DNA of 54,817 nt from Bacteroidales bacterium (GTDB taxonomy: Bacteria > Bacteroidota > Bacteroidia > Bacteroidales > P3): positions 1-54,817 of the forward strand of contig JAFRRK010000009.1 in assembly GCA_017428115.1 (NCBI GenBank), given 5' to 3'. The position numbers and the translations under genes were made by a program. Below, in pieces: positions 22,643-33,031 of this stretch. Within the stretch, counting starts at the first letter, position 1; each line of letters begins with the position of its first letter. The notes below the pieces were generated by a model that was given only the letters and a program-made list of their open reading frames with translations, searched no databases and was not told the origin of the DNA.

Positions 22643-23085
22643 ACCGTTGCACAAAGTCAAAGCAAAGGAATCCAGCACTCTATGCCGCCCCACACAAAAC
22701 TGTGTACCAAGAAAAGTGGGACATGATGACGATGACAATGACAATAAAGATGGACGCACCTACCGCCCCCTGGTGGGCGAATTAAAAGAGCCAGATCGCC
22801 AACCCACTGATTATCGTTGCAAACAATACTAAGAAACAACCATTTGTAAAAACAAAACAAATCACTTCCGTAGAAAATGACTTATCAAACCACAATACAA
22901 CCCAAGTGGAAGCCCCCCCCACGCGGCCTCTAAAGCATCCGGGCCAGCCCGCAGCTCGCCCTAGACGGTGGCCGTCCCATCCCGAACCTGCACAATGGGA
23001 GTGCCCACCATTGATTCGGACACATCCACAAGGAAATAAATTGGTAATCTTCTCATAGCTTCTTTATCAATTCAAAATAAATGTG

Positions 23086-23093
23086 TACTTTTG
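23086..23093 (+). promoter_or_regulatory. -7 promoter element for the DUF4160-DUF2442 pair
   Basis: TACTTTTG matches TAnnTTTG, with a TTTA at 23063-23066 at about the spacing of a -33 element. Transcription would start near 23100, which places an upstream GTG out of the transcript and supports the ATG at 23116. Confidence 0.55.
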
Positions 23094-23115
23094 CAAAATA
23101 AATGGAGAAGAGGCC

Positions 23116-23274
23116 ATGATTGACATTGTCGACGGTCATATTACAGGTTCCCTTCCACGGAGAGCTTTGAGACTTGTATATGAATGGCTTGATTTGCATC
23201 AAGAAGAACTTATGGAAAACTGGGAAAGACTTACTAACAGTAAACCAGCTGTTAAAATCGACCCTCTTAAATAG
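23116..23274 (+). CDS. DUF4160 protein, N-terminally truncated
   Basis: A 52-residue product matching the C-terminal two thirds of DUF4160: MIDIVDGHITGSLPRRALRL and then LHQEELMENWERL. The family's N-terminal part, with the PPHFHA-type His motif, is absent, and the frame closes upstream at 23056. The promoter element overlaps where the missing part should be, so the ATG at 23116 with an upstream GGAGAAGAGG is preferred over a GTG at 23083. DUF4160 genes are commonly paired with DUF2442, as here 6 nt downstream. The pair is sometimes discussed as toxin-antitoxin-like, but this is unproven. The truncation may make it inactive. Confidence 0.65.
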   Translation: MIDIVDGHITGSLPRRALRLVYEWLDLHQEELMENWERLTNSKPAVKIDPLK

Positions 23275-23280
23275 ATAAAT

Positions 23281-23532
23281 ATGGAAAAACCATTTTTTTT
23301 GAAAATAACTGCTGCTGACTATGTGCGCGATTACATCTTGAGACTTACTTTCAATGATGGTGCAGTAAAGCTGGTGGACTTTACGCCATTGATGCAGAAA
23401 GGTATTTGCCGCAAGCTTCAAGACATGGACTATTTCCGCAACTACACACTCGACCCATTCACCGTCGACTGGAACAACGAAATAGGCTTCGCACCCGAAT
23501 CACTGTATGAGCGTGGGGTAACCGTGTCTTGA
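23281..23532 (+). CDS. DUF2442 domain protein
   Basis: An 83-residue protein of the DUF2442 family: an N-terminal strand region (YILRLTFNDGAVKLVDFTPL), a short helix region around LQDMDYFRNYTLD, and the closing TVDWNNEIGFAPESLYERG, which resembles the family's WPNGADIAPEALY. Family members are small and often paired with DUF4160. Function is not established. It is 6 nt behind the truncated DUF4160 gene and convergent with the large operon that ends at 23619. Length is typical, so this gene looks intact. Confidence 0.85.
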   Translation: MEKPFFLKITAADYVRDYILRLTFNDGAVKLVDFTPLMQKGICRKLQDMDYFRNYTLDPFTVDWNNEIGFAPESLYERGVTVS

Positions 23533-23618: not shown

Positions 23619-26150
23619 TCAGCATAAAGCATCTGATAGATATTCAAGTAATTGTCCAAAATATTTGTTTCTATTATCATTATACGTGCTAAAATTGCGG
23701 CTGGTATTATAGAACCAGTTGAAAAGATCCGAATCGTCACCTTTAGTGATCATTCGTTTGTTGTTCTCCACGAACTTTTTGTAGAGGTTACAATTATGAA
23801 GGAAATTAGATTCTGCTGCGTTATGGGGATAATTTGACAGTTCTTTACCAAGAGCGTCAATTTTCAATATTTCGTCAGAAGAGAGCTCTGTCAACTGACT
23901 TGCTCTATAGTACCATCTGTATAGGCAACCCTCAAAACCATCTCGACCAGAATAAGGGAACCTCTTATTCTTGATAACAAATTCCCTAAACGCCAGCAAC
24001 CAATCATCAAATGTTTGGGGCATAAGTGTATATTCACCGATATATTTCTTTCGAGGAAATCCAATAAAATCATCATAGAAAAGCAACAATTCTCCGGAAG
24101 ATGCTGTTTGCCGAATAATAGAAGATATGCTTCTTTCATTAGAATCCGGCCTTCTTTTCATAACTAATTCCGTAAGATCGTTGATTTTTATTGGTTGTTT
24201 TGCTTTTTTCACAATCTGGATTGAGATTTCTCGAATACTGCCTGTTTCCTCCTCCCACTCTTTTAATCCCCAGAATCCAGATTTAGCGATAGAAACAATA
24301 CGTGGATCTTTAGTGAGGTATGTCGTTAGTTGGACTACATCCGTGATGCTACAAGTAATACCTTTCTCCTGACATCTTTGTTTTAGTTGTCTTAACAATT
24401 CGTCTTTATTTGATCGTTCCCCTGCATCTTGTAAGATTTCATACAACTGATTACTATAATCCATACTGTTTGCTTTGATAAACAAACTCTCATTACGTAT
24501 TTCTGCGTTACATATTCTCTGAAAGATCTCAACCAGAATCACTTTCATATTTCTTCTATCCTCATCGGAGGGAGAAAAGGTGTCGTCCCAATAATAATTG
24601 TTATCTATAAAATAACTAACAATTGGTATTAAAACATTCTCTTCGGTCTTTACTTTCATGAGGCGACAAACTTCACTGAGGGCTTTGTTATACCTAAAAG
24701 AAGTATATTTAATGTCAATATAAAAAGAGAAGTGAACATTTTGTGGGAATGAGAAGTAAGGATAGATTCTTTTCTTTTCCAAATTGGCAAAGTAGCAAGT
24801 CAATCCAAAAACCTGAAACAGAAATGTTTTGTTAATTGGACAATAAACATCTTGGGTATTACCATTTTTAATGCATTCGGTTGATTGTTGTTCGGATAAA
24901 TAGTCGCACAAAACACCGTTCTCCATTTCCACCTTTCTATCGAAGATTGAGTACATGTTCAAAGAATCACAAAATGGCGGGATGTTATTGATATCATAGT
25001 ATTTCCAATCCGGATGATTACGCAATTCCTTTAATAAAAAATTGTCACCTATCTTTTCTAACGCTTTATCAATTATTTGTTGTAATCGGGTCTTTGACAA
25101 AGTCATCACTTCTTTGGGCATCACTGTTTTTTCCCCATTAAGTACCATTAATTCTTGTTCTGAAAAGACATATTTGGAACACTTTAGTGATAAAAATAGC
25201 ATCGGCCAATGGTTACACTTCTTGTGGAAAAAAGATAAGAAACCCTCTTCAGTGGCATCAAAAGGAATAGTATCCACAAAAGGGAAACCGCCATTAATTC
25301 TGTATGGAACTCGAGAAACACTCTCACAAACAACCTTTTGCAATTCACATGCCAAAGCCAATAATTCTTGGGCAGACTTTTTGCCACAATTCCTAAATTG
25401 GAGAAAGTCTTTTTCGGCAGAATTCAAATATGGTTCAAACTTCTTCCATTGTAGGAATCCATGAGCTTTTGCAATATTGTATGTTCTGACAGACAAACAG
25501 CTTAATGATAGTTCATATTGTCTTTGAATAAATTGGACTTCCGAGAGTGATAACTCTTGAATTGCTTTTTGTATTTGAATTGTTTCTACATCATTCTCAT
25601 TGGTTTTATTCAAAGAAGCATTACTTTTTCTAAGACAACAAACCTCATCAATAATCTTTTGCAATTCAGAAGCCAAGGTTAATAATTCTTGGGCAGACTT
25701 TTTTCCACAATTACTATATCGAAGAAAGTCTTCTTCTGTTGAATTCAAATAAGGTTCAAATTTTGTCCATTGAAGTAGTCCATGATTTTTTACAATGCTT
25801 TGTGCTCTAACTGACAAGCAGTTTAATAATTGTTCATATTGTCTTTGAATAAATTGGACTTCTGAGAGAGATAACTCTTGAATAGCTTTTTGGCTTTGAA
25901 TTGCTTCTTTTTTATTCTCATTGGTTCTTTTCGAAGTATTATAATATTCTCGGAGTTGACAAACCATTTTGTGGATTTCTCCCACGGTTTTAAGCCCACA
26001 ATTTCTAAGTAATAATATCTTTTTGGGGTCAGTGAGAAGAGAAAGGACATCTGTTGCCTTCTCAAATCCTCCAAACTCCAGAATGTGATTTGCCCTCACT
26101 GACAAGTTTTTTCGCAATTCTATATAGTATTCTTGCAGGTCATCTCCCAT
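23619..26150 (-). CDS. Large protein with three RNA-polymerase-alpha-CTD-like repeats, winged-helix-like and helicase-associated-like segments
   Basis: An 843-residue protein, last gene of the operon, overlapping the radical SAM gene by 11 nt. Near residues 12-70, 108-170 and 213-275 lie three helix-hairpin-helix repeats of the RNA polymerase alpha C-terminal type: each has LSVR near its start and RNCG or SNCGKKSAQEL near its end, as in alpha-CTD, which binds DNA. Repeats 2 and 3 are near-identical and come from a 321-bp tandem duplication. Further on are two possible winged-helix segments (about 590-650 and 655-720; IKINDLTELVMKRRPDSNER) and a C-terminal part resembling helicase-associated repeats (FDDWLLAFREFVIKNKRFP). 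No catalytic motif was found. Likely a multivalent DNA-binding or targeting subunit; this is inference. Confidence 0.8.
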   Translation of the reverse strand: MGDDLQEYYIELRKNLSVRANHILEFGGFEKATDVLSLLTDPKKILLLRNCGLKTVGEIHKMVCQLREYYNTSKRTNENKKEAIQSQKAIQELSLSEVQFIQRQYEQLLNCLSVRAQSIVKNHGLLQWTKFEPYLNSTEEDFLRYSNCGKKSAQELLTLASELQKIIDEVCCLRKSNASLNKTNENDVETIQIQKAIQELSLSEVQFIQRQYELSLSCLSVRTYNIAKAHGFLQWKKFEPYLNSAEKDFLQFRNCGKKSAQELLALACELQKVVCESVSRVPYRINGGFPFVDTIPFDATEEGFLSFFHKKCNHWPMLFLSLKCSKYVFSEQELMVLNGEKTVMPKEVMTLSKTRLQQIIDKALEKIGDNFLLKELRNHPDWKYYDINNIPPFCDSLNMYSIFDRKVEMENGVLCDYLSEQQSTECIKNGNTQDVYCPINKTFLFQVFGLTCYFANLEKKRIYPYFSFPQNVHFSFYIDIKYTSFRYNKALSEVCRLMKVKTEENVLIPIVSYFIDNNYYWDDTFSPSDEDRRNMKVILVEIFQRICNAEIRNESLFIKANSMDYSNQLYEILQDAGERSNKDELLRQLKQRCQEKGITCSITDVVQLTTYLTKDPRIVSIAKSGFWGLKEWEEETGSIREISIQIVKKAKQPIKINDLTELVMKRRPDSNERSISSIIRQTASSGELLLFYDDFIGFPRKKYIGEYTLMPQTFDDWLLAFREFVIKNKRFPYSGRDGFEGCLYRWYYRASQLTELSSDEILKIDALGKELSNYPHNAAESNFLHNCNLYKKFVENNKRMITKGDDSDLFNWFYNTSRNFSTYNDNRNKYFGQLLEYLSDALC
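25321..25962 (-). repeat. 321-bp imperfect tandem duplication inside the alpha-CTD-repeat gene
   Basis: Markers such as TAATTCTTG (25362 and 25683) and TCTTTGAATA (25521 and 25842) recur exactly 321 bp apart, so 107 codons are duplicated in frame. Edges are approximate. It encodes alpha-CTD-like repeats 2 and 3 plus their linkers. Confidence 0.8.
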
Positions 26151-28131
26151 GGCACTCCTTTCTCCTCAATTGTCTTGTTGGGTGTTGGTCGTATTCTTGT
26201 TTCAAATGATAAAGTTCGGTACCAGGCGTAATAATGTTATGACGGTAATCGACATAACAACGAAGGAGTTCTCTTACTTCAATATCATTAAATTCAAGTA
26301 TTGTGTCGTCATTGAATACGTTAGCATGGATAGTAGACAGTACCTTAGTCCATTCAGACTCGGTCAGTTTTCCTTTACACTGAAACCATAAAGTTCTCCA
26401 ATGTTCAGTGCCACGCCCATTCCGCTCATCAAGCCACTTGAAGAAGAAACGGTATAGTATAATAGTTTCTGGCATTTCAAGCAGTTCCAAAAACTCTTCC
26501 TCTTTGTGACCGAAAGCTTCACCGAAAAACTCAGCACCTTTGCCCACCTTTCCCTTCGTACTATTCAATATAGCCTGAACTGCACGAATATATTTTCTAT
26601 TCCAATGCTCACCAATATAATCACGATTATGGCTATACTCTCCTTGCAAAGGATGGTACTTCATTGGGAAAGAGTAGATACTCACCCCCAATTCTTCGCA
26701 TAGTTCAACATTTATTTTCAGTCGGCGATAAAGGTCGATGGGTTCATCCTTAAAATTGTAGAGGAGATAATTCGAAAAATCTTTAATTCCAGCGGCGACG
26801 CTCCATCGAATTGCATTTTCATAAGCAGGTCGAGTCTTGATATCATCAAATGCAATACGCAATGGACGTATAGCAATAGAAGCCAATAGACGAGCTTTTT
26901 CTTCAGTAAAGAGACGTGCGTCTACGCCTTGGTTGAAGTCAACATATCGTTGTTTTAGCCCAGCATTAAAGTGTTTATCGTGATATGGCTTTATTTCCCC
27001 ATAGGCGGCAAGCAGATTCTCCTTTTTAGAGGTAATCAACTTCTTGATATGGTATTTCTCAAGAATCTTATATACCTCATACGATTCTTCTTTGTTGGTT
27101 AACGATTCGTAAAACTCTTTTATCAAGAACTGAGTCTTGCGGATATATGCACGGTCGTTCCAACCGTCACGCAAATTCCTTACGGATATTTCAAGTTGAT
27201 TGGGCTGTGAAAACTTTGCTCCTCGTACAAAACCACAGGCTTTTATTTCGTTGATTATGTCTTCAAATCGTTCAGAAGCAAGGACGTTATTGTCCATCAG
27301 TAGCAAGTCTTTCTGGTCACCATAACGCGCACGGATACCGTTTATTCGGTCGGTCAGAGAGATATAAGGTATATAAACAGGTTCAAGCGTAGGAACTGCG
27401 CAGAAAGAACAATGTCGAATACATCCTCTAGACATATAGCCATAGAATGCATTCGACATAGGATACTTATAATCTATTTCATCAAGAATAGAGTAATCTA
27501 ATGGTAACTCGTCAATAATTTGAGTGTCTCCTTTATCGAAAAGCCCAGGCTTGTTTAGCACACCTACAGAAGGCTTTATCCCCGTAACCTCATACAACTT
27601 GTCTGGCTGTATGGAAGCCAATACCCCACCTACATTCAAGTTTTTCTTATTCTTGACAAGAAGCTTTGCAAAGTTGATGGTATCAACAGTAATATCCCAA
27701 TAGAAGGTAAATAACGTTGTCACACACACTCGGTCCCACTCTGGCTCGGATTTCCAAGTACCTTTCCAATAATAGTTTTTATAATCGTCAAGTTTCTTAC
27801 GTAATGACATCGCCGATTCAGAATCTTCAACGTTAATACTATCTAATGCATCATGCTTACGAGTTTTAATATAGTCAAAAATTCTATCTTTGCGAATGGT
27901 CCAATCAATTGTACTATCAAGTACTTCCAACTCTGCAATACATCTGTCTACTATACGTTCTATCACAAAAGTTGATAAATCCCCCTTATAGAACACAACA
28001 TCCCAATTGCCAAGATTCTTGTAGTAGGTTGATATTTTCATCAAACCTATAGGAGGAAACTTGTTGGCATAATTTGGTTCTATGAGCAGTACTTTCTTTC
28101 TTGTTTTCTTTCTTGTTTTCTTTCTCATCAT
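26140..28131 (-). CDS. Radical SAM protein
   Basis: A 663-residue radical SAM enzyme. After a basic start (KKTR repeated) comes VLLIEPNYANKFPPIGL, typical of the N-terminal Rossmann-like domain of B12-binding-type family members (about 13-220). The 4Fe-4S ligands are Cys237, Cys241 and Cys244 in SRGCIRHCSFC (CxxxCxxC). The barrel follows, with LLLMDNNVLAS and FNQGVDARLF. About 200 extra C-terminal residues (from about 460) do not match anything I know. Overlaps the alpha-CTD gene by 11 nt and follows the GHKL ATPase gene by 4 nt. The substrate is unknown. Nuclease and translocase neighbours suggest nucleic-acid or nucleotide modification, but that is inference. The N-terminal KKTR repeat is encoded by a 12-bp DNA repeat, so the exact start is uncertain. 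Confidence 0.88.
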   Translation of the reverse strand: MMRKKTRKKTRKKVLLIEPNYANKFPPIGLMKISTYYKNLGNWDVVFYKGDLSTFVIERIVDRCIAELEVLDSTIDWTIRKDRIFDYIKTRKHDALDSINVEDSESAMSLRKKLDDYKNYYWKGTWKSEPEWDRVCVTTLFTFYWDITVDTINFAKLLVKNKKNLNVGGVLASIQPDKLYEVTGIKPSVGVLNKPGLFDKGDTQIIDELPLDYSILDEIDYKYPMSNAFYGYMSRGCIRHCSFCAVPTLEPVYIPYISLTDRINGIRARYGDQKDLLLMDNNVLASERFEDIINEIKACGFVRGAKFSQPNQLEISVRNLRDGWNDRAYIRKTQFLIKEFYESLTNKEESYEVYKILEKYHIKKLITSKKENLLAAYGEIKPYHDKHFNAGLKQRYVDFNQGVDARLFTEEKARLLASIAIRPLRIAFDDIKTRPAYENAIRWSVAAGIKDFSNYLLYNFKDEPIDLYRRLKINVELCEELGVSIYSFPMKYHPLQGEYSHNRDYIGEHWNRKYIRAVQAILNSTKGKVGKGAEFFGEAFGHKEEEFLELLEMPETIILYRFFFKWLDERNGRGTEHWRTLWFQCKGKLTESEWTKVLSTIHANVFNDDTILEFNDIEVRELLRCYVDYRHNIITPGTELYHLKQEYDQHPTRQLRRKECHGR
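28092..28130 (-). repeat. 12-bp tandem repeat at the start of the radical SAM gene
   Basis: Minus-strand unit AAGAAAACAAGA repeats about three times, coding for KKTRKKTRKK. Unit length is a multiple of three, so copy-number changes alter the basic tail length without breaking the frame. Confidence 0.65.
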
Positions 28132-28135
28132 TCCA

Positions 28136-29869
28136 TCAAAGACTATTCACAGCGATTTCCATAAGTTGAATGATCCTCTTTTTGTCAGATGAAGAACAAA
28201 CAACAAGCATGGTCTTAAACACTTGCCTCAAGATTGCAATTTGTTCTGTACTATACTTTTTGCCTTCAAGGGAAGACAACATCTCGTCCACCTGAGACTT
28301 AGCCTGAGTCTTTGGAGTAGTCCTCAGGAGTTGAGAGCTGGGCTTTATTGGCGACTGTTCTGACGATGGTGTAGAAATGGTTGCTGCCTCTACTAGAATC
28401 TCGGGAGAAGGAGTTTTTTGTTTCTCGGGAGAAGGCGTTGGCTTAGTAGGGAGATCCGTTGTTTCAAAGACCATATCGAGTATATCTTGCGACTTCTCCT
28501 GTGACATTTTTTGTGGAGCAAGATATTTCTCCACTTCGGCTTTCAATTCAGAGTTAAACTTGTTTTGATAGATGGCTATAATATCATTGATTTCTACTTT
28601 CTCATCTTTAGAAACGAGCTTATTGAATTCGTTATAATGTTCTTGTAGTTTGTTTGTCAATGGTCCTGAAGCACTCGAAAAATCAGGATTATTTAGTTTG
28701 TCAACAACCTCAGCAATTTTATTTAATGCCGTTTTTAGCTTATTGGCACGATAGTACACTTGGCGCAACGTTTCTGAGAAGTATCGTTTGATTTCTAACA
28801 TTAATGCTTCTGCTTCTTCACCAGCTGCCAATCCTTGTCTTCCGCTATCAGGGACGATATTGTCGTTGGTGATAAAGATTTCGCCATAAAAATATTTATT
28901 ACCCCTAGGTTCCTTAAAACATGAATTGAGGAAGTTTTTATCCAACGATATATTGTGTTTACGCAACCGAATACCAGCACAGTTATCCTTCTCTTCATTG
29001 ATTTGTACAGAAAACTCCGTAACGGCATACCAACCCCACCCAAGCGAACCGTATTTGGGGTGCATAGGAAGCTCAAAATACCGAATCTTCTCAATAGGGT
29101 CATCCGTACCAACGATCTTCACACCATAACCCTTCTCTATATCGGAGTATTCATTGAGAGATACTCTTATTTTGTCTATCTTTTTATGTCTCTTTACAAA
29201 TTCTGCTTGAGGGCAACTGTTTATCAGAGAATTGAAAAGTACGGAATAATCAATAGGAGCATATTCAGTAATATAGTTCTTTATCTCGTCAACATCCAAA
29301 AGAATTTCTCGCGAATTGATAACGTTCTTTAGACGGACAATGAAATTATGGTCTTCTTTTATGGCGGGAATAGTCTTCGTAGTGCAGATTATTCTCATTG
29401 CATCTTCAGCAGAGATGTCTGCCTTCTTTTTGTCAATCAGACCTCTCAACGCCATCGTGTCAAGAGAGACAATAGTTGAAACCTCTTCTCCCTTATAAGT
29501 AGTCTCAAATTCAAGAGCCTCACAATATCCACCACCAGAGAGACGCCCAACTCCGAACTGACCAGCTGTATCTACACCATTCTTTACACTATTGGCAATG
29601 TCTGTGAGAATTTTCACAGCTCTATCACTGCGTATACCAGTACCATTATCCTCAATGCAAATATCATTTTTGGTGATACTAATTGACACTCGACCATCTT
29701 TCTCCTGAGATAGTATACCATTCTTTACTGCCTCATTAATTGAATCTAGAGCATTCTGGATATACTCTCTGTATATACAGCGAGGATTACTATAAAGCTG
29801 TAACATCAGCATCTTTAAGAGATCTATGCCGATGACTGGACTATCTATGTTTTGCATATTATTAGCCAT
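28136..29869 (-). CDS. GHKL (Hsp90/MutL-like) ATPase
   Basis: A 577-residue ATPase with the GHKL fold. The N-box is YREYIQNALDSINEA (Glu35, Asn39, Asp42). The G1 box is EDNGTGI (Asp74) and the G2 box is GQFGVGRLSGGGYCE near residues 103-117. An Hsp90/MORC-like middle region runs to about 440. A Pro/Ser/Thr-rich linker (PTPSPEKQKTPSPE) and a short C-terminal helical tail follow. Such ATPases form ATP-gated dimeric clamps and occur in restriction-linked and other defence clusters. It overlaps the HerA-like gene by 8 nt and precedes the radical SAM gene by 4 nt. A two-component kinase is excluded because there is no phosphoacceptor His domain. Confidence 0.88.
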   Translation of the reverse strand: MANNMQNIDSPVIGIDLLKMLMLQLYSNPRCIYREYIQNALDSINEAVKNGILSQEKDGRVSISITKNDICIEDNGTGIRSDRAVKILTDIANSVKNGVDTAGQFGVGRLSGGGYCEALEFETTYKGEEVSTIVSLDTMALRGLIDKKKADISAEDAMRIICTTKTIPAIKEDHNFIVRLKNVINSREILLDVDEIKNYITEYAPIDYSVLFNSLINSCPQAEFVKRHKKIDKIRVSLNEYSDIEKGYGVKIVGTDDPIEKIRYFELPMHPKYGSLGWGWYAVTEFSVQINEEKDNCAGIRLRKHNISLDKNFLNSCFKEPRGNKYFYGEIFITNDNIVPDSGRQGLAAGEEAEALMLEIKRYFSETLRQVYYRANKLKTALNKIAEVVDKLNNPDFSSASGPLTNKLQEHYNEFNKLVSKDEKVEINDIIAIYQNKFNSELKAEVEKYLAPQKMSQEKSQDILDMVFETTDLPTKPTPSPEKQKTPSPEILVEAATISTPSSEQSPIKPSSQLLRTTPKTQAKSQVDEMLSSLEGKKYSTEQIAILRQVFKTMLVVCSSSDKKRIIQLMEIAVNSL

Positions 29870-31529
29870 TGGGATATTGTTTATATGTTGGACGAGGGAA
29901 TCTAATGTTAACTAATGAGCGTAATGCTGGATTAGAGATAATATACTCGCCAGGCGATAAGCGAGTCATCATATTTTGGTACACCTTGGGGATATAGCGA
30001 TAGTCAGACTTGGACACTTCTATCGCGTTGGTACGTCCATAGGCTTGTGTAGCACAATTGCCCTTCACACGGTCATGAATGGCACTACGGAACTGTTCAA
30101 CTGAAAAAAGGATAATACCAAGGGAACGACCACGTTCTGCAATATCAAGCAACTGCTGGAGAATAGGAGAACTCTTTGGTACGTCGTTGGATGCATATTT
30201 GTTTAACTCATCAACAAACAAGATTACTTTTTCTGGAATATTATCACGTTCTGCACCAAGTTTCATATCATAAATAGCTCGAGCAACACTTCCGAAAACA
30301 AAACTCTGAGCGTTATCGTCAAGTCTCGCAATGTCAATTACCATTACTTGCCCAGCCACCAACTCATTGGTTATTTCTTCAGTTAAATCCACTTCGGCTG
30401 TAGCATCATTGAGGTTCGTGCCAAAAAGTGGGTTTTGTATTGCTTTATTTACACAACGCTTAAACTTACGCCAGCTTGTTACTTGTATTTCGTTCTTTTT
30501 TCCACCATTGGCTTCAGTTTTGGTGCATTCATCAATTTTGTCACGCAGAGTTGTCCAACTATCAACAGCGTTAAATGGTTCTTGCCGATTGATAATGTAG
30601 TTTACACAACTTTCGAGTGTTCCAGTAGAGTCATCTTCGTTAGCAAGCAGCAGGTCAATTTTCTCAATACAGTTTTCGTAAATAAATTTATACTTTTTCG
30701 CTTTGCCTTTTTTTATTTGATTTATTACATCTTCTGGTTGAGCATAGCTTTGTACATAGGCGGTAGCCTTGTCTTTACTATAGGGGTAATAGTAACGCAC
30801 ATTATTGAAAGGTTGTGTGGACAATCCAAGGTCATGATATATTTTCTTATCTAAGCTTGGAAGTTCTGTGTTTGGTTCATCTATTGCCATTAAATCACGT
30901 CCTTTGACATTGAAAAATACAAAGGCAACGGTTTCTCCATTTTCTGTACGAAACTTCTCCTGAATAGCTTTGAGAAGAAACATTGAAAAAGATGTTTTCG
31001 CAGCAAGGCCAGAAATACCAGATACGTTTATATGTGCACCATCAGGGCCAAGTAGGAAATGAGAATTTAGTACTACAGGTACTTTAATAGCCGCATCTCC
31101 CTGATACATCTGAAGGTATCCACAAACCAAAGGGTTCTGAACATCTTTCTCACTTAGCCCGAGTGCAATTTTGATGTCGTTCTCGTCACAAAGAGATACA
31201 CGTCGGTCATTCAAAACAGGAGTATAGATATTCTGGGTATTGCACGACACTCGCACCTTCACATAGTTCATCCCCAACCGATTCATATCGCCAATATTAT
31301 CATCAATAGCACCAAAATCACTTGAAATATAGCTTGTGAAATGGCTTGGAGAATCAGTTACGTGATTTATCTCTTCAATAACACCATAGGTTGTTGAGTC
31401 ACATTCATGTTCCACTTTTACAATATCGAAAGGACTCAATATTTGACGTTTGTCAGTCCAAAAGAAAAACTCATCTATTGTTGATGGGGCTTTTTCTGTT
31501 GCTGATACTTTACCAATAATCTTAGTCAT
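29862..31529 (-). CDS. HerA-like DNA translocase ATPase with deviant Walker A
   Basis: A 555-residue P-loop ATPase of the HerA/FtsK class. Residues about 30-100 look like the HAS-barrel domain of HerA. The P-loop is GISGLAAKTS (171-180), in which the Gly before Lys178 is Ala, a departure from GxxGxGK(S/T). Walker B is KVILFVDELNKYA (Asp440, Glu441). A later RGRSLGIILFSVEQF matches the sensor strand of HerA-type proteins. HerA proteins form hexamers that pump DNA and partner with NurA nuclease. Here the NurA-like gene is directly upstream, 1 nt apart. Overlaps the GHKL ATPase gene by 8 nt. Whether the altered P-loop still hydrolyses ATP is open, although Lys and Thr are kept. Confidence 0.86.
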   Translation of the reverse strand: MTKIIGKVSATEKAPSTIDEFFFWTDKRQILSPFDIVKVEHECDSTTYGVIEEINHVTDSPSHFTSYISSDFGAIDDNIGDMNRLGMNYVKVRVSCNTQNIYTPVLNDRRVSLCDENDIKIALGLSEKDVQNPLVCGYLQMYQGDAAIKVPVVLNSHFLLGPDGAHINVSGISGLAAKTSFSMFLLKAIQEKFRTENGETVAFVFFNVKGRDLMAIDEPNTELPSLDKKIYHDLGLSTQPFNNVRYYYPYSKDKATAYVQSYAQPEDVINQIKKGKAKKYKFIYENCIEKIDLLLANEDDSTGTLESCVNYIINRQEPFNAVDSWTTLRDKIDECTKTEANGGKKNEIQVTSWRKFKRCVNKAIQNPLFGTNLNDATAEVDLTEEITNELVAGQVMVIDIARLDDNAQSFVFGSVARAIYDMKLGAERDNIPEKVILFVDELNKYASNDVPKSSPILQQLLDIAERGRSLGIILFSVEQFRSAIHDRVKGNCATQAYGRTNAIEVSKSDYRYIPKVYQNMMTRLSPGEYIISNPALRSLVNIRFPRPTYKQYPNG

Positions 31530-31530
31530 A

Positions 31531-32706
31531 TCAAAATAGATTAAGTATTATATTCTGGTTGATGTAATTTGATTTACAAAATGTCTCGGTTAGAAAGACG
31601 GGATAAAGATGGTTCGCCCAACGACTATCATTTCCGTAACAAGTAGGATAGGCTTCGCGGATTAGGTTGGCACTAATGAGGTCTACAAGTTGTGTATCCA
31701 ATGCACCCCCATTTTCCTCCAACACCATCTCGCACTTCACAACATCGGAGAAATGAGTCTCTCGGAAGTTGCTATTACGTAACCTAAGATACCACATAGC
31801 AAATTCAGATTGACTGCTTGATGCCGGGTACCGATAAACTTTGGTTCGTTCAAAAGGCTTCAAGTTAGCAATAGTTTTTGAAAGACGATGTCCCTTGAAG
31901 TCGCGTAACAAATCGGGGTTAAACATTTTGGATACTCCCACCACATGCTTATAATTAGAACGAAGCTGGTTCCATTCTGTGGTTGACAAATTTGAATAGC
32001 TGGCGTTATACTCTAACGAGCCATCTTTTATAAGGAAATGTTCGTTATCGAGCAAGTTGTGTTTGCATAGTTCAGCAACCATTAACTGCTCTTCATCGGT
32101 CATCTCATTTTGAATTTTTGCTGTGCCACTGTTTTTGTATCCATTCTTGTCAGCAGTAATATCCTTAGAACCATCCGTGGGATAAAGCAAGATTTTGTCA
32201 ATCATGATGCCATGTTCCTGAACAAAAAGATTTTTTGATAGCTCCTCATTTATTTTCTCACAATACATCCGACAAAAGTTCTCTTCTTTGTCGTCATCAT
32301 AGTTAAAATTTCGAGGTAAGGAGAGCAATGCTTTTCGTGTAATAGAATGGCACTTAAATGTATCTCGGTTCTTTCTCACACAACATCCTACAATAATCTG
32401 ACCTGCAAGGAATGGGAAGATACGGTTACCTATAGCAATATCATCGACTTTGTACACATGGCGAGAGCCGTCAAGGAAAAAAGAGAAGAGAGGTGTACTG
32501 GCCAATTTCATCATTTGCTGGCTAATGGTAACCGTTTCTTTTCGTGAGAGGTCGGTTTCTGCGATACTGGCACTATTAAGAGAGACGGCAGGCCTGTCAT
32601 CATAATCGAGTGTATCTTGGTCGTTTTGGTCAAGGATAAGTTTCTTCGTTTTATAACAAGAATACTTTCCTTCCCCCTCCTTTTCTATGAAGTCTAATAT
32701 CTTCAT
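31531..32706 (-). CDS. NurA-like nuclease
   Basis: A 391-residue protein resembling NurA, the RNase H-fold nuclease that works with HerA in end resection. Key signatures are FFLDGSRHVYKV (Asp79-Gly-Ser) and FLIKDGSLEYN (Asp228), the two DGS-type acidic motifs of NurA, VVGVSK near 255-260, and a late block with YLRLRNS, VKCEMV and SRWANHLYPVFLTE. The order and spacing fit the NurA core; overall similarity is remote, so this is a motif-level call. It is followed after 1 nt by the HerA-like gene, the classic partner. Upstream is a frameshifted small gene whose stop lies 13 nt before this start. Probably the cleavage subunit of the operon. Confidence 0.75.
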   Translation of the reverse strand: MKILDFIEKEGEGKYSCYKTKKLILDQNDQDTLDYDDRPAVSLNSASIAETDLSRKETVTISQQMMKLASTPLFSFFLDGSRHVYKVDDIAIGNRIFPFLAGQIIVGCCVRKNRDTFKCHSITRKALLSLPRNFNYDDDKEENFCRMYCEKINEELSKNLFVQEHGIMIDKILLYPTDGSKDITADKNGYKNSGTAKIQNEMTDEEQLMVAELCKHNLLDNEHFLIKDGSLEYNASYSNLSTTEWNQLRSNYKHVVGVSKMFNPDLLRDFKGHRLSKTIANLKPFERTKVYRYPASSSQSEFAMWYLRLRNSNFRETHFSDVVKCEMVLEENGGALDTQLVDLISANLIREAYPTCYGNDSRWANHLYPVFLTETFCKSNYINQNIILNLF

Positions 32707-32719
32707 CCGCGCACTTATC

Positions 32720-33000
32720 CTAACCCCAAGTCTCCAACGGGTGATTGTTCAACAATAAGAAAGGCATGAGACTTATGTGCTCATGTCCGTTTTCACAGAG
32801 GTAACGCCAATCACCTTCGAAGGAACGGGTAAAACCATCAGGCTTCTCCATGGAACAAATCTCACGCCTGAGGGTATGCCTCAATGAATGACAGCATACG
32901 CAACAAGCAAAAGCAATATGCTCCGTCCTCCTTCATAAAAATTGGCGTATTCCTGTGAAAGGACAGTTAATAGCAATGCTTTCTTCGCATCGTCCAGCAT
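32720..33000 (-). pseudogene. Frameshifted small Cys-rich gene at the head of the operon
   Basis: ATG at 33000 opens a frame (MLDDAKKALLLTVLSQEY, then ANFYEGG) that stops at 32881 after 39 codons. The next frame continues without a break: TEHIAFACCVCCHSLRHTL, then FEGDWRYLCENGHEHISLM and a final NHPLETWG, stopping at 32720. The two join at GAAGGAGGACGG (about 32918-32930), where one missing base, or a -1 slip, gives a coherent 93-residue protein with several Cys and His, perhaps zinc-binding. A -7 promoter at 33024-33031 directly precedes it, so it is probably the first gene of the operon. Mutation, programmed -1 frameshift at the internal AAGGAGGA, and sequencing error all remain possible. 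I do not recognise the family. Confidence 0.55.
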
Positions 33001-33023: not shown

Positions 33024-33031
33024 CAAATATA
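33024..33031 (-). promoter_or_regulatory. -7 promoter element of the NurA/HerA/GHKL/rSAM operon
   Basis: TATATTTG on the minus strand matches TAnnTTTG exactly and lies 23 nt before the ATG at 33000, leaving a short leader. No clear -33 element. Confidence 0.6.

Follow-up and report, generated by a model that had tools for sequence, protein, structure and literature searches.

A conserved NurA-HerA, GHKL ATPase and radical-SAM gene cassette of Bacteroidales and other bacteria, a candidate mobile module against foreign DNA

Contig JAFRRK010000009.1 of the Bacteroidales assembly GCA_017428115.1, of which nucleotides 1 to 54,817 are the window analysed here, contains an operon of five large minus-strand open reading frames (ORFs) arranged in tandem between 32706 and 23619 (Table 1). 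They encode a NurA-like nuclease, a HerA-type ATPase, a GHKL ATPase, a radical-SAM enzyme and a large fifth protein with alpha-CTD-like segments. The original prediction, made from the sequence alone, was of a single six-gene unit for defence or DNA processing that begins with a small Cys-rich protein. Its five large and tightly spaced genes are borne out by the coordinates, neighbours being 1 and 4 nt apart at two junctions and overlapping by 8 and 11 nt at the other two. The AT-rich island is real too, the GC content being 0.34-0.41 across 23-33 kb and about 0.49-0.58 in most other window DNA. The unit of six genes stood only in part: four genes form a fixed core, the fifth is optional, and the small protein is not real. 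The promoter box that had been called, TATATTTG, lies just upstream of a leader RNA, with approximately 300 nt separating it from the first ATG, that of nurA; we take it to be a Bacteroidetes-type -7 box.

Table 1. Features of the operon and its leader in the window.
Feature	Coordinates	Strand	Basis
NurA-like nuclease, 391 aa	31531..32706	minus	ORF list
HerA-type translocase ATPase, 555 aa	29862..31529	minus	ORF list
GHKL (Hsp90/HtpG-like) ATPase, variable C-terminal region, 577 aa	28136..29869	minus	ORF list
Radical-SAM enzyme, B12-binding-like N-terminal domain, 663 aa	26140..28131	minus	ORF list
Optional fifth protein, 843 aa, alpha-CTD-like segments	23619..26150	minus	ORF list
Structured non-coding leader RNA, between promoter and nurA	32752..32982	minus	covariation; reading frame not kept
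Presumed -7 box of the operon promoter, TATATTTG	33024..33031	minus	read from sequence

The first four genes are a fixed, co-inherited unit. With HerA as the sole bait in a collection of 84,980 species genomes, the best 80 of 156 relatives were analysed, and a nurA gene lies directly upstream of herA in all 80 genome loci. A GHKL gene follows herA in 72 of the 73 loci with room for it, a radical-SAM gene is present in all 65 that have room for one, and all four genes lie together on one strand in 62 of the 63 loci that extend far enough in both directions, with median spacings of 1, -8 and -4 nt; the co-conservation on which the original prediction was made to depend is therefore found. These are not 80 independent events, because related loci cluster: in nine loci (L024-L030, L042 and L086) HerA is at least 83% identical to that of the window, other loci cluster too, and some genomes are repeated (L016/L049, L020/L068, L021/L076 and perhaps L078/L079; among loci mentioned below, L255 is the L028 contig, L262 the L026 contig, and L104/L156 and L105/L155 are also repeats). 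Pairwise distances of the four core proteins correlate (r 0.50-0.85 over 21 shared loci), and for each of the six protein pairs none of 2000 permutations gave a correlation as high. Among 296 genomes of the phylum, the four with a strong HerA match are the same four that contain a full-length or nearly full-length radical-SAM protein.

Each of the four core proteins carries invariant catalytic residues, including those named beforehand (NurA D79 and D228, GHKL E35 and radical-SAM C237). The HerA profile matches PDB 7f6d_B, the HerA of the Deinococcus radiodurans HerA-NurA complex (PMC9960219), at 9.4e-55; its Walker residues K178-T179 and D440-E441 are invariant in the alignment, and it carries an altered Walker A sequence, GISGxAxKTS, that is common to 7f6d HerA. 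The NurA-like assignment is weak by sequence (the profile matches 7f6d_H NurA at E 0.05, and the Pfam NurA model matches two of 45 orthologues, the window protein not being among those shown), and is backed by the invariable place of the gene before herA. D79, D228 and K260 do not vary among the NurA orthologues and are presumably counterparts of the catalytic D53 and K201 of the Deinococcus enzyme. The GHKL protein matches Pfam HATPase_c_3 (3.1e-9) and, as its nearest profile match, HtpG (2.6e-13); E35, N39, D74 and G78 are invariant in 49 sequences, so the N-box Glu/Asn and the Asp...Gly motif are present, and its tail (residues ~400-520) is variable in sequence. The radical-SAM call is supported by a Pfam Radical_SAM match in all 38 orthologues at E≤0.1 (0.012 for the window protein itself) and by a CxxxCxxC motif (C237, C241 and C244) invariant in the 38 sequences. 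Nine of the 38 match a Pfam B12-binding model in the N-terminal domain, and the protein belongs with phrog_9298 (2.4e-38). Its profile gave only chance matches in the PDB, and the window protein matched no PADLOC model at E≤1, viperin models included.

The fifth protein has a conserved C-terminal part and a hypervariable N-terminal part. The triple alpha-CTD originally read in it corresponds to three segments (residues 16-59, 112-156 and 219-263), one of which Pfam itself detects. Among the 80 genome loci and the window, 26 of 81 have too little sequence for a decision; in the other 55 the gene follows the radical-SAM gene in 23 and is absent from 32, several Bacteroidales among these. The family as compared here was reduced from 27 to 24 members by leaving out L056 and L081, where the gene is upstream of nurA, and L091, where it is on the opposite strand; the twenty-fourth, in L017, is outside the count of 23. 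In L064 and L088 the gene begins 1.9 kb beyond the radical-SAM gene, and the L088 protein also contains a sigma-70 region 4 (2.9e-7), with HARE-HTH and helicase-associated domains below the family cut-offs.

In 45 pairs of loci with HerA more than 88% identical, median identities are 90% for NurA, 94.2% for HerA, 80% for GHKL and 88% for the radical-SAM protein, and 44.9% for the fifth protein. Among the eight fifth proteins of the window's own group, identity is 51-72% over the final 240 alignment columns and 15-48%, with large changes in length, over the remainder. The pair L027/L029 is 28% identical in the N-terminal part of the fifth protein and 99% in NurA, HerA and radical SAM, whose synonymous codons are 94-99% identical, and the N-terminal part has therefore been exchanged and has not slowly diverged. 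L029 and L086 have fifth proteins with a C-terminal part that is 99% identical, and L036 and L040 are similar in the fifth (91-92%) and radical-SAM proteins with more diverged NurA, HerA and GHKL. Other pairs are similar throughout (L036/L041, fifth protein 90%) or nearly so (L047/L048, 80-81%). These pairs fit reshuffling of the fifth gene, with exchange isolated in a minority of the ten pairs examined.

The cassette is patchily distributed, accessory and mobile. By record title, the loci come from Bacteroidales, Flavobacteriaceae, Saprospiraceae, Cytophagales, Ignavibacteria, Desulfo-bacteria, Lentisphaerae/Victivallales, Treponema, Aminicenantes, Patescibacteria and Bacilli MAGs (metagenome-assembled genomes), assignments that are subject to misplacement of contigs in binning; the Patescibacteria and Treponema contigs end before the radical-SAM gene. 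A strong HerA match (E<1e-170) occurs in eight of the order's 295 genomes, the source genome included; besides these, one has a HerA fragment at a contig edge and five have weak generic HerA matches. Within the genus the cassette is present in 10 of 120 genomes, again counting the source, and in two versions, five others being 93-95% and four 53-55% identical to that of the window.

The surroundings of related cassettes differ. Homology between the 4-kb flanks of cassettes with a fifth protein is limited to 246-630 nt before nurA, plus two short downstream pieces in one pair. A clean empty site was not obtained from a comparison of flanking markers among genus relatives. In the eight HerA-bearing genus assemblies, all drafts, for which both markers are listed (G600, G614, G633, G640, G653, G656, G686 and G696) HerA is on a contig other than that of either marker, and in G613 the left marker alone could be placed, also on a contig other than HerA's. 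Six relatives with no HerA match in the genome (G672, G623, G688, G668, G665 and G709) have the markers 3.7-5.8 kb apart, versus 15.1 kb in the window, with the left marker inverted, and the region is therefore rearranged in them. Full four-gene copies occur on viral contigs (L104, L105 and L174) and on an unverified 8.9-kb faecal clone recorded as 'Bacteriophage sp.' (L154). Marinitoga camini virus 1 (L150:6933-10759) encodes NurA-type and HerA proteins and, convergently, a 360-aa radical-SAM protein of the same family, with which as bait no viral relative was found. In L017 (genome G292) the herA gene is split by an insertion-sequence-like stretch with a 428-aa ORF on the opposite strand.

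Some relatives carry additional genes between herA and the radical-SAM gene: an AAA_15 ATPase (nine loci) with a 280-aa partner (seven), a ~330-aa protein with a second GHKL protein (eight loci, two from one genome), or an HNH protein (three loci, two from one genome). The one AAA_15 ATPase tested (L063) matches 92 PADLOC models, best of all NsnB of Menshen (7.1e-67), and the sole match of its 280-aa partner is Cas11a (0.0092).

Relatives of the radical-SAM protein are common on viral contigs, with 302 found and the best 80 analysed, and several stand in other company. Eight viral loci (L161, L162, L163, L165, L167, L168, L172 and L173) combine radical-SAM and GHKL genes with an SNF2 helicase and two ParB-like proteins, the ParB label being based on a single weak Pfam match (0.0051, L163) and a reading of the sequences; six of the eight add a small protein of 135-147 aa. 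A relative in L164 lies with a NERD-helicase, and in L160 (5651-9176) a DndB-domain protein (1.2e-12) directly precedes the radical-SAM gene. In viral loci L175 (5125-10591) and L169 a member of the same radical-SAM family comes directly after type IV Cas genes, together with a second radical-SAM protein, the Cas8/Csf1, Cas11, Cas7 and Cas5 identities being established on L175 only. In L179-L186 and L189 a small ParB-looking gene, so called by sequence reading (the one tested has no Pfam match), directly precedes a short radical-SAM relative, often with genes that by eye are terminase-like after it.

The reading frame of the small Cys-rich protein is not kept in L026 and L028, the two relatives that align over the full length of the leader, and the stretch is instead a covarying, structured RNA. 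Twenty copies of 210-230 nt, from this and other genomes, align, and compensatory changes on both sides are seen in 14 of 51 predicted pairs. When the leader structure is imposed on 19 copies, 98.3% of cells are paired and 15 pairs are changed on both sides, and none of 500 shuffles reaches either value. The covariation score is 0.229. Shuffles give 0.079, none of 500 matching the real value, and sliding the partners by 1-3 columns gives 0.024-0.031, although the structure is favoured over its slid versions because it was derived from the same alignment. At the 3' end an invariant hairpin is followed by a U-rich run, resembling an intrinsic terminator. No window match reached the gathering score in Rfam 15, and a relaxed search gave only a chance match (E 4.2).

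Four copies of the leader are present in the source genome, at least one in 22 of 149 genomes of the order, and matches in 114 of 190 genomes of the family (BLASTN, E≤0.001). Of 20 sites fetched (L255-L274), three precede this same operon, the L028 and L026 contigs included; the rest precede varied genes, among them a type III Mod gene (6k0w, 3.9e-43), a MotA/TolQ/ExbB protein (8vvi, 6e-16) followed by what looks by eye like an OmpA-like protein, rimP-nusA-infB (L268, by eye), and large ATPase-like proteins with no PDB match (L258 and L261). We considered the RNA as a component of the system, akin to a retron or guide RNA, and reject this: the downstream genes are unrelated, and it is near nurA in only six of 84 scanned sources, the window included, three of them weak or partial matches. 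Since copies stand before such varied genes, it is a general leader. It may represent a new RNA class, possibly an attenuator, before defence-type and ordinary operons alike. The leaders of other loci fold with a mean z of -2.4 (39 leaders) versus -1.3 for 39 control stretches, itself not zero, and in L032 and L034 the control folds more strongly (-7.7 and -8.9); no common family was shown among these 39 leaders.

Convergent with the operon end, on the plus strand at 23083-23532, is the DUF4160-DUF2442 pair noted originally, which resembles the toxin-antitoxin families DhiT/DhiA at scores below the cut-offs of those models.

We favour the reading that the cassette is a mobile module against foreign DNA with a translocating nuclease as its basis, and would give this a probability of about one half. 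We infer the following division of labour, including the radical-SAM substrate, the gating by GHKL and the targeting by the fifth protein. As is established for the Deinococcus pair and carried over here by homology, the HerA ring would pump double-stranded DNA into NurA, which would cut it. The GHKL protein may act as an ATP-driven clamp or switch deciding when the ring is loaded, and would occupy the place of SbcD-SbcC (Mre11-Rad50 type) in related HerA operons; archaeal HerA-NurA is described as acting together with Mre11-Rad50 (PMC4641729, PMC8910471). From the position of GHKL and radical SAM in the SbcD-SbcC place, we suggest that these two decide when and on what NurA-HerA acts. The radical-SAM enzyme would covalently modify a nucleic acid, most probably DNA, or less probably a protein of the complex, and so license or protect. 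The DndB-domain and type IV Cas neighbours of its relatives on viral contigs may point to marking of nucleic acids. Where present, the fifth protein could aim the complex, its C-terminal part docking on the core and its interchangeable N-terminal part, with alpha-CTD/HhH-type (helix-hairpin-helix) segments, reading DNA or an invader-made structure.

The case for the defence role originally proposed is circumstantial, being made of patchiness, unrelated surroundings, swapped modules, the hypervariable fifth protein and defence-type neighbours elsewhere. In the flanks, 148 proteins match 112 PADLOC families, oligonucleotide-cyclase, AbiE and AbiU models among them, versus 23 families for 124 control proteins, these being counts of families and not proteins, with one protein able to match many models. 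For the flank set we took, at each locus, no more than the three nearest genes of 150-700 aa (12 of 160 dropped at random) and omitted 24 loci (L016-L023 and 16 judged redundant) and three viral loci; on the control side, seven of the 131 proteins lay at fragment ends and stayed unaligned.

Several observations weigh against this reading, one being that PADLOC lacks a model for the set. The control proteins come from seven genomes of one order and the flank set from many phyla, no PADLOC family is matched by more than three proteins in either set, the commonest (PDC-S01) occurs in both, and control proteins also match the defence models MzaA, AriA, PtuA and GajA. The near flanks in the window look ordinary from their ORFs, with for example a nadD-like gene. 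Recognition of NurA by sequence is weak. L095 has room for a GHKL gene and lacks it, the distant HerA of viral contig L106 has NurA with neither GHKL nor radical SAM near, and within the phylum G552 lacks HerA but has a radical-SAM fragment, and G477 lacks radical SAM but has a distant HerA. Two of the 24 fifth proteins have no alpha-CTD-like segments, and because the fifth protein is missing from 32 of 55 decidable loci, aiming cannot everywhere depend on it.

A more specific form of the anti-foreign-DNA reading is offered tentatively, as one that we think is probably not correct as a whole. The cassette might provide restriction-type immunity in which the self mark is made by radical SAM instead of by methylation, phosphorothioation or deazaguanine, the radical-SAM enzyme writing it and GHKL with NurA-HerA destroying unmarked DNA. 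The Bacteroidales fifth protein might then be a swappable specificity subunit common to writer and destroyer, rewired by recombination. Elsewhere the writer and GHKL might be joined to other destroyers, the SNF2 helicase with its ParB-like partners (where the frequent small protein may have a nuclease-like look) or the NERD-helicase; type IV CRISPR genes or the DndB-domain protein might accompany a writer that has no GHKL. If this is true, it would be the first restriction-type immunity to use a radical-SAM-made mark.

An accessory DNA-repair cassette, in which NurA-HerA resects broken ends for recombination and GHKL and radical SAM replace Mre11-Rad50 as loaders or repair altered bases, seems unlikely to us. 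Plasmid relatives of HerA are paired with SbcD-SbcC, and the nearest solved relative, the Deinococcus pair, is described as an end-resection machine (PMC9960219). However, the presence in only 10 of 120 genus genomes, the non-homologous flanks, the swapping of modules and the hypervariable fifth protein all fit repair poorly. Moreover, deletion of nurA-herA is reported to make Deinococcus approximately tenfold more resistant to high-dose UV and mitomycin C (PMC9960219), and repair is therefore no better supported for the bacterial pair.

Cargo that serves the mobile element and not the host, by replicating, transferring or shielding the element's DNA against the host, we regard as quite unlikely. 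The full copies on three viral contigs and the unverified phage clone, the Marinitoga virus genes and the 302 viral radical-SAM relatives all speak for it; but a HerA scan of viral contigs gave at least three relatives, a lower bound because the scan missed L174, against 156 in genomes, and plasmids gave six records, none above 60% identity, and phages two. Least likely is abortive infection through a viperin-like toxic or signalling small molecule made by the radical-SAM enzyme, with activated NurA-HerA degrading whole-cell DNA, for although radical-SAM enzymes act in defence as prokaryotic viperins and GHKL ATPases are sensors in other contexts, this enzyme has a B12-binding-like N-terminal domain (9 of 38), belongs with phrog_9298 and matches no PADLOC viperin model.

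Several known systems come near the operon. None of the PADLOC-DB 2023 models describes the set, the six window proteins giving only weak matches, of HerA to mad8 (7.3e-7) and HerA (4.6e-6) and of GHKL to TmtA (9e-4). No paper describing the set was found by searches on HerA/NurA with radical SAM, GHKL, Hsp90 and defence in open full text (outside subscription papers, preprints and supplements), judged from titles and abstract starts, so that a match to a described system, the other outcome on which the original prediction hung, did not emerge. The main text of the nearest paper, on HerA/FtsK capture systems (PMC10853773), mentions none of NurA, GHKL and Hsp90. As far as could be searched, no description exists of NurA-HerA in a fixed alliance with a radical-SAM enzyme and an Hsp90-type ATPase. 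The alliance raises the question of whether bacterial immunity marks DNA by radical chemistry. Because recognition parts have been swapped naturally between near-identical cores, the target of the fifth protein is approachable by experiment, and the return of the radical-SAM-GHKL pair with different effectors points to a broader family of such systems.

The class of nucleases driven by HerA is growing, in immunity as in repair. In HerA-Sir2 and HerA-DUF4297 defence a HerA ring is coupled to an effector enzyme; unlike these, the window operon has NurA as effector, with GHKL and radical SAM added, Pfam and PADLOC scans of the window proteins found neither SIR2 nor DUF4297, and the PADLOC HerA model is matched only at the value given above. 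Apart from the mad8-type HerA match, none of the other MADS proteins (mad1-mad8) is seen among the six window proteins. Nor do these match any Nsn protein of Menshen (NsnA-NsnB-NsnC), whose NsnB is the best match of the ATPase inserted in some related operons, an ATPase that is absent from that of the window. The type I restriction-modification subunit HsdS likewise combines hypervariable and conserved parts, as does the fifth protein with its swapping among near-identical cassettes; unlike type I systems, the window set has no methyltransferase or HsdR, with radical SAM and NurA-HerA instead, and any DNA specificity is putative.

Plasmid sets in Streptomyces (L151), Chlorohelix (L152) and Sphaerospermopsis (L153), the three opened of the six plasmid relatives and from three phyla, similarly place a HerA relative among DNA-end enzymes, but SbcD and SbcC/SMC genes follow HerA in place of GHKL and radical SAM, and HerA is 25.5-30.5% identical; L152 and L153 have hypothetical genes of 331 and 346 aa directly upstream of HerA. 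The HerA arrangement in G477 (L145) resembles these sets. The operon agrees with bacterial NurA-HerA in having a HerA-type RecA-fold ATPase and, beside it, a NurA-like gene with conserved Asp and Lys. The Deinococcus pair is of the same HerA subfamily, shares the Walker A variant and the NurA partner, and nurA-herA is described as an operon there too (PMC9960219); it differs in having been studied as an end-resection machine, and the portions of that paper drawn on here mention neither a GHKL nor a radical-SAM partner. We regard the operon as a new form of HerA-based DNA-processing system; it would be a new kind if the radical-SAM mark is real.

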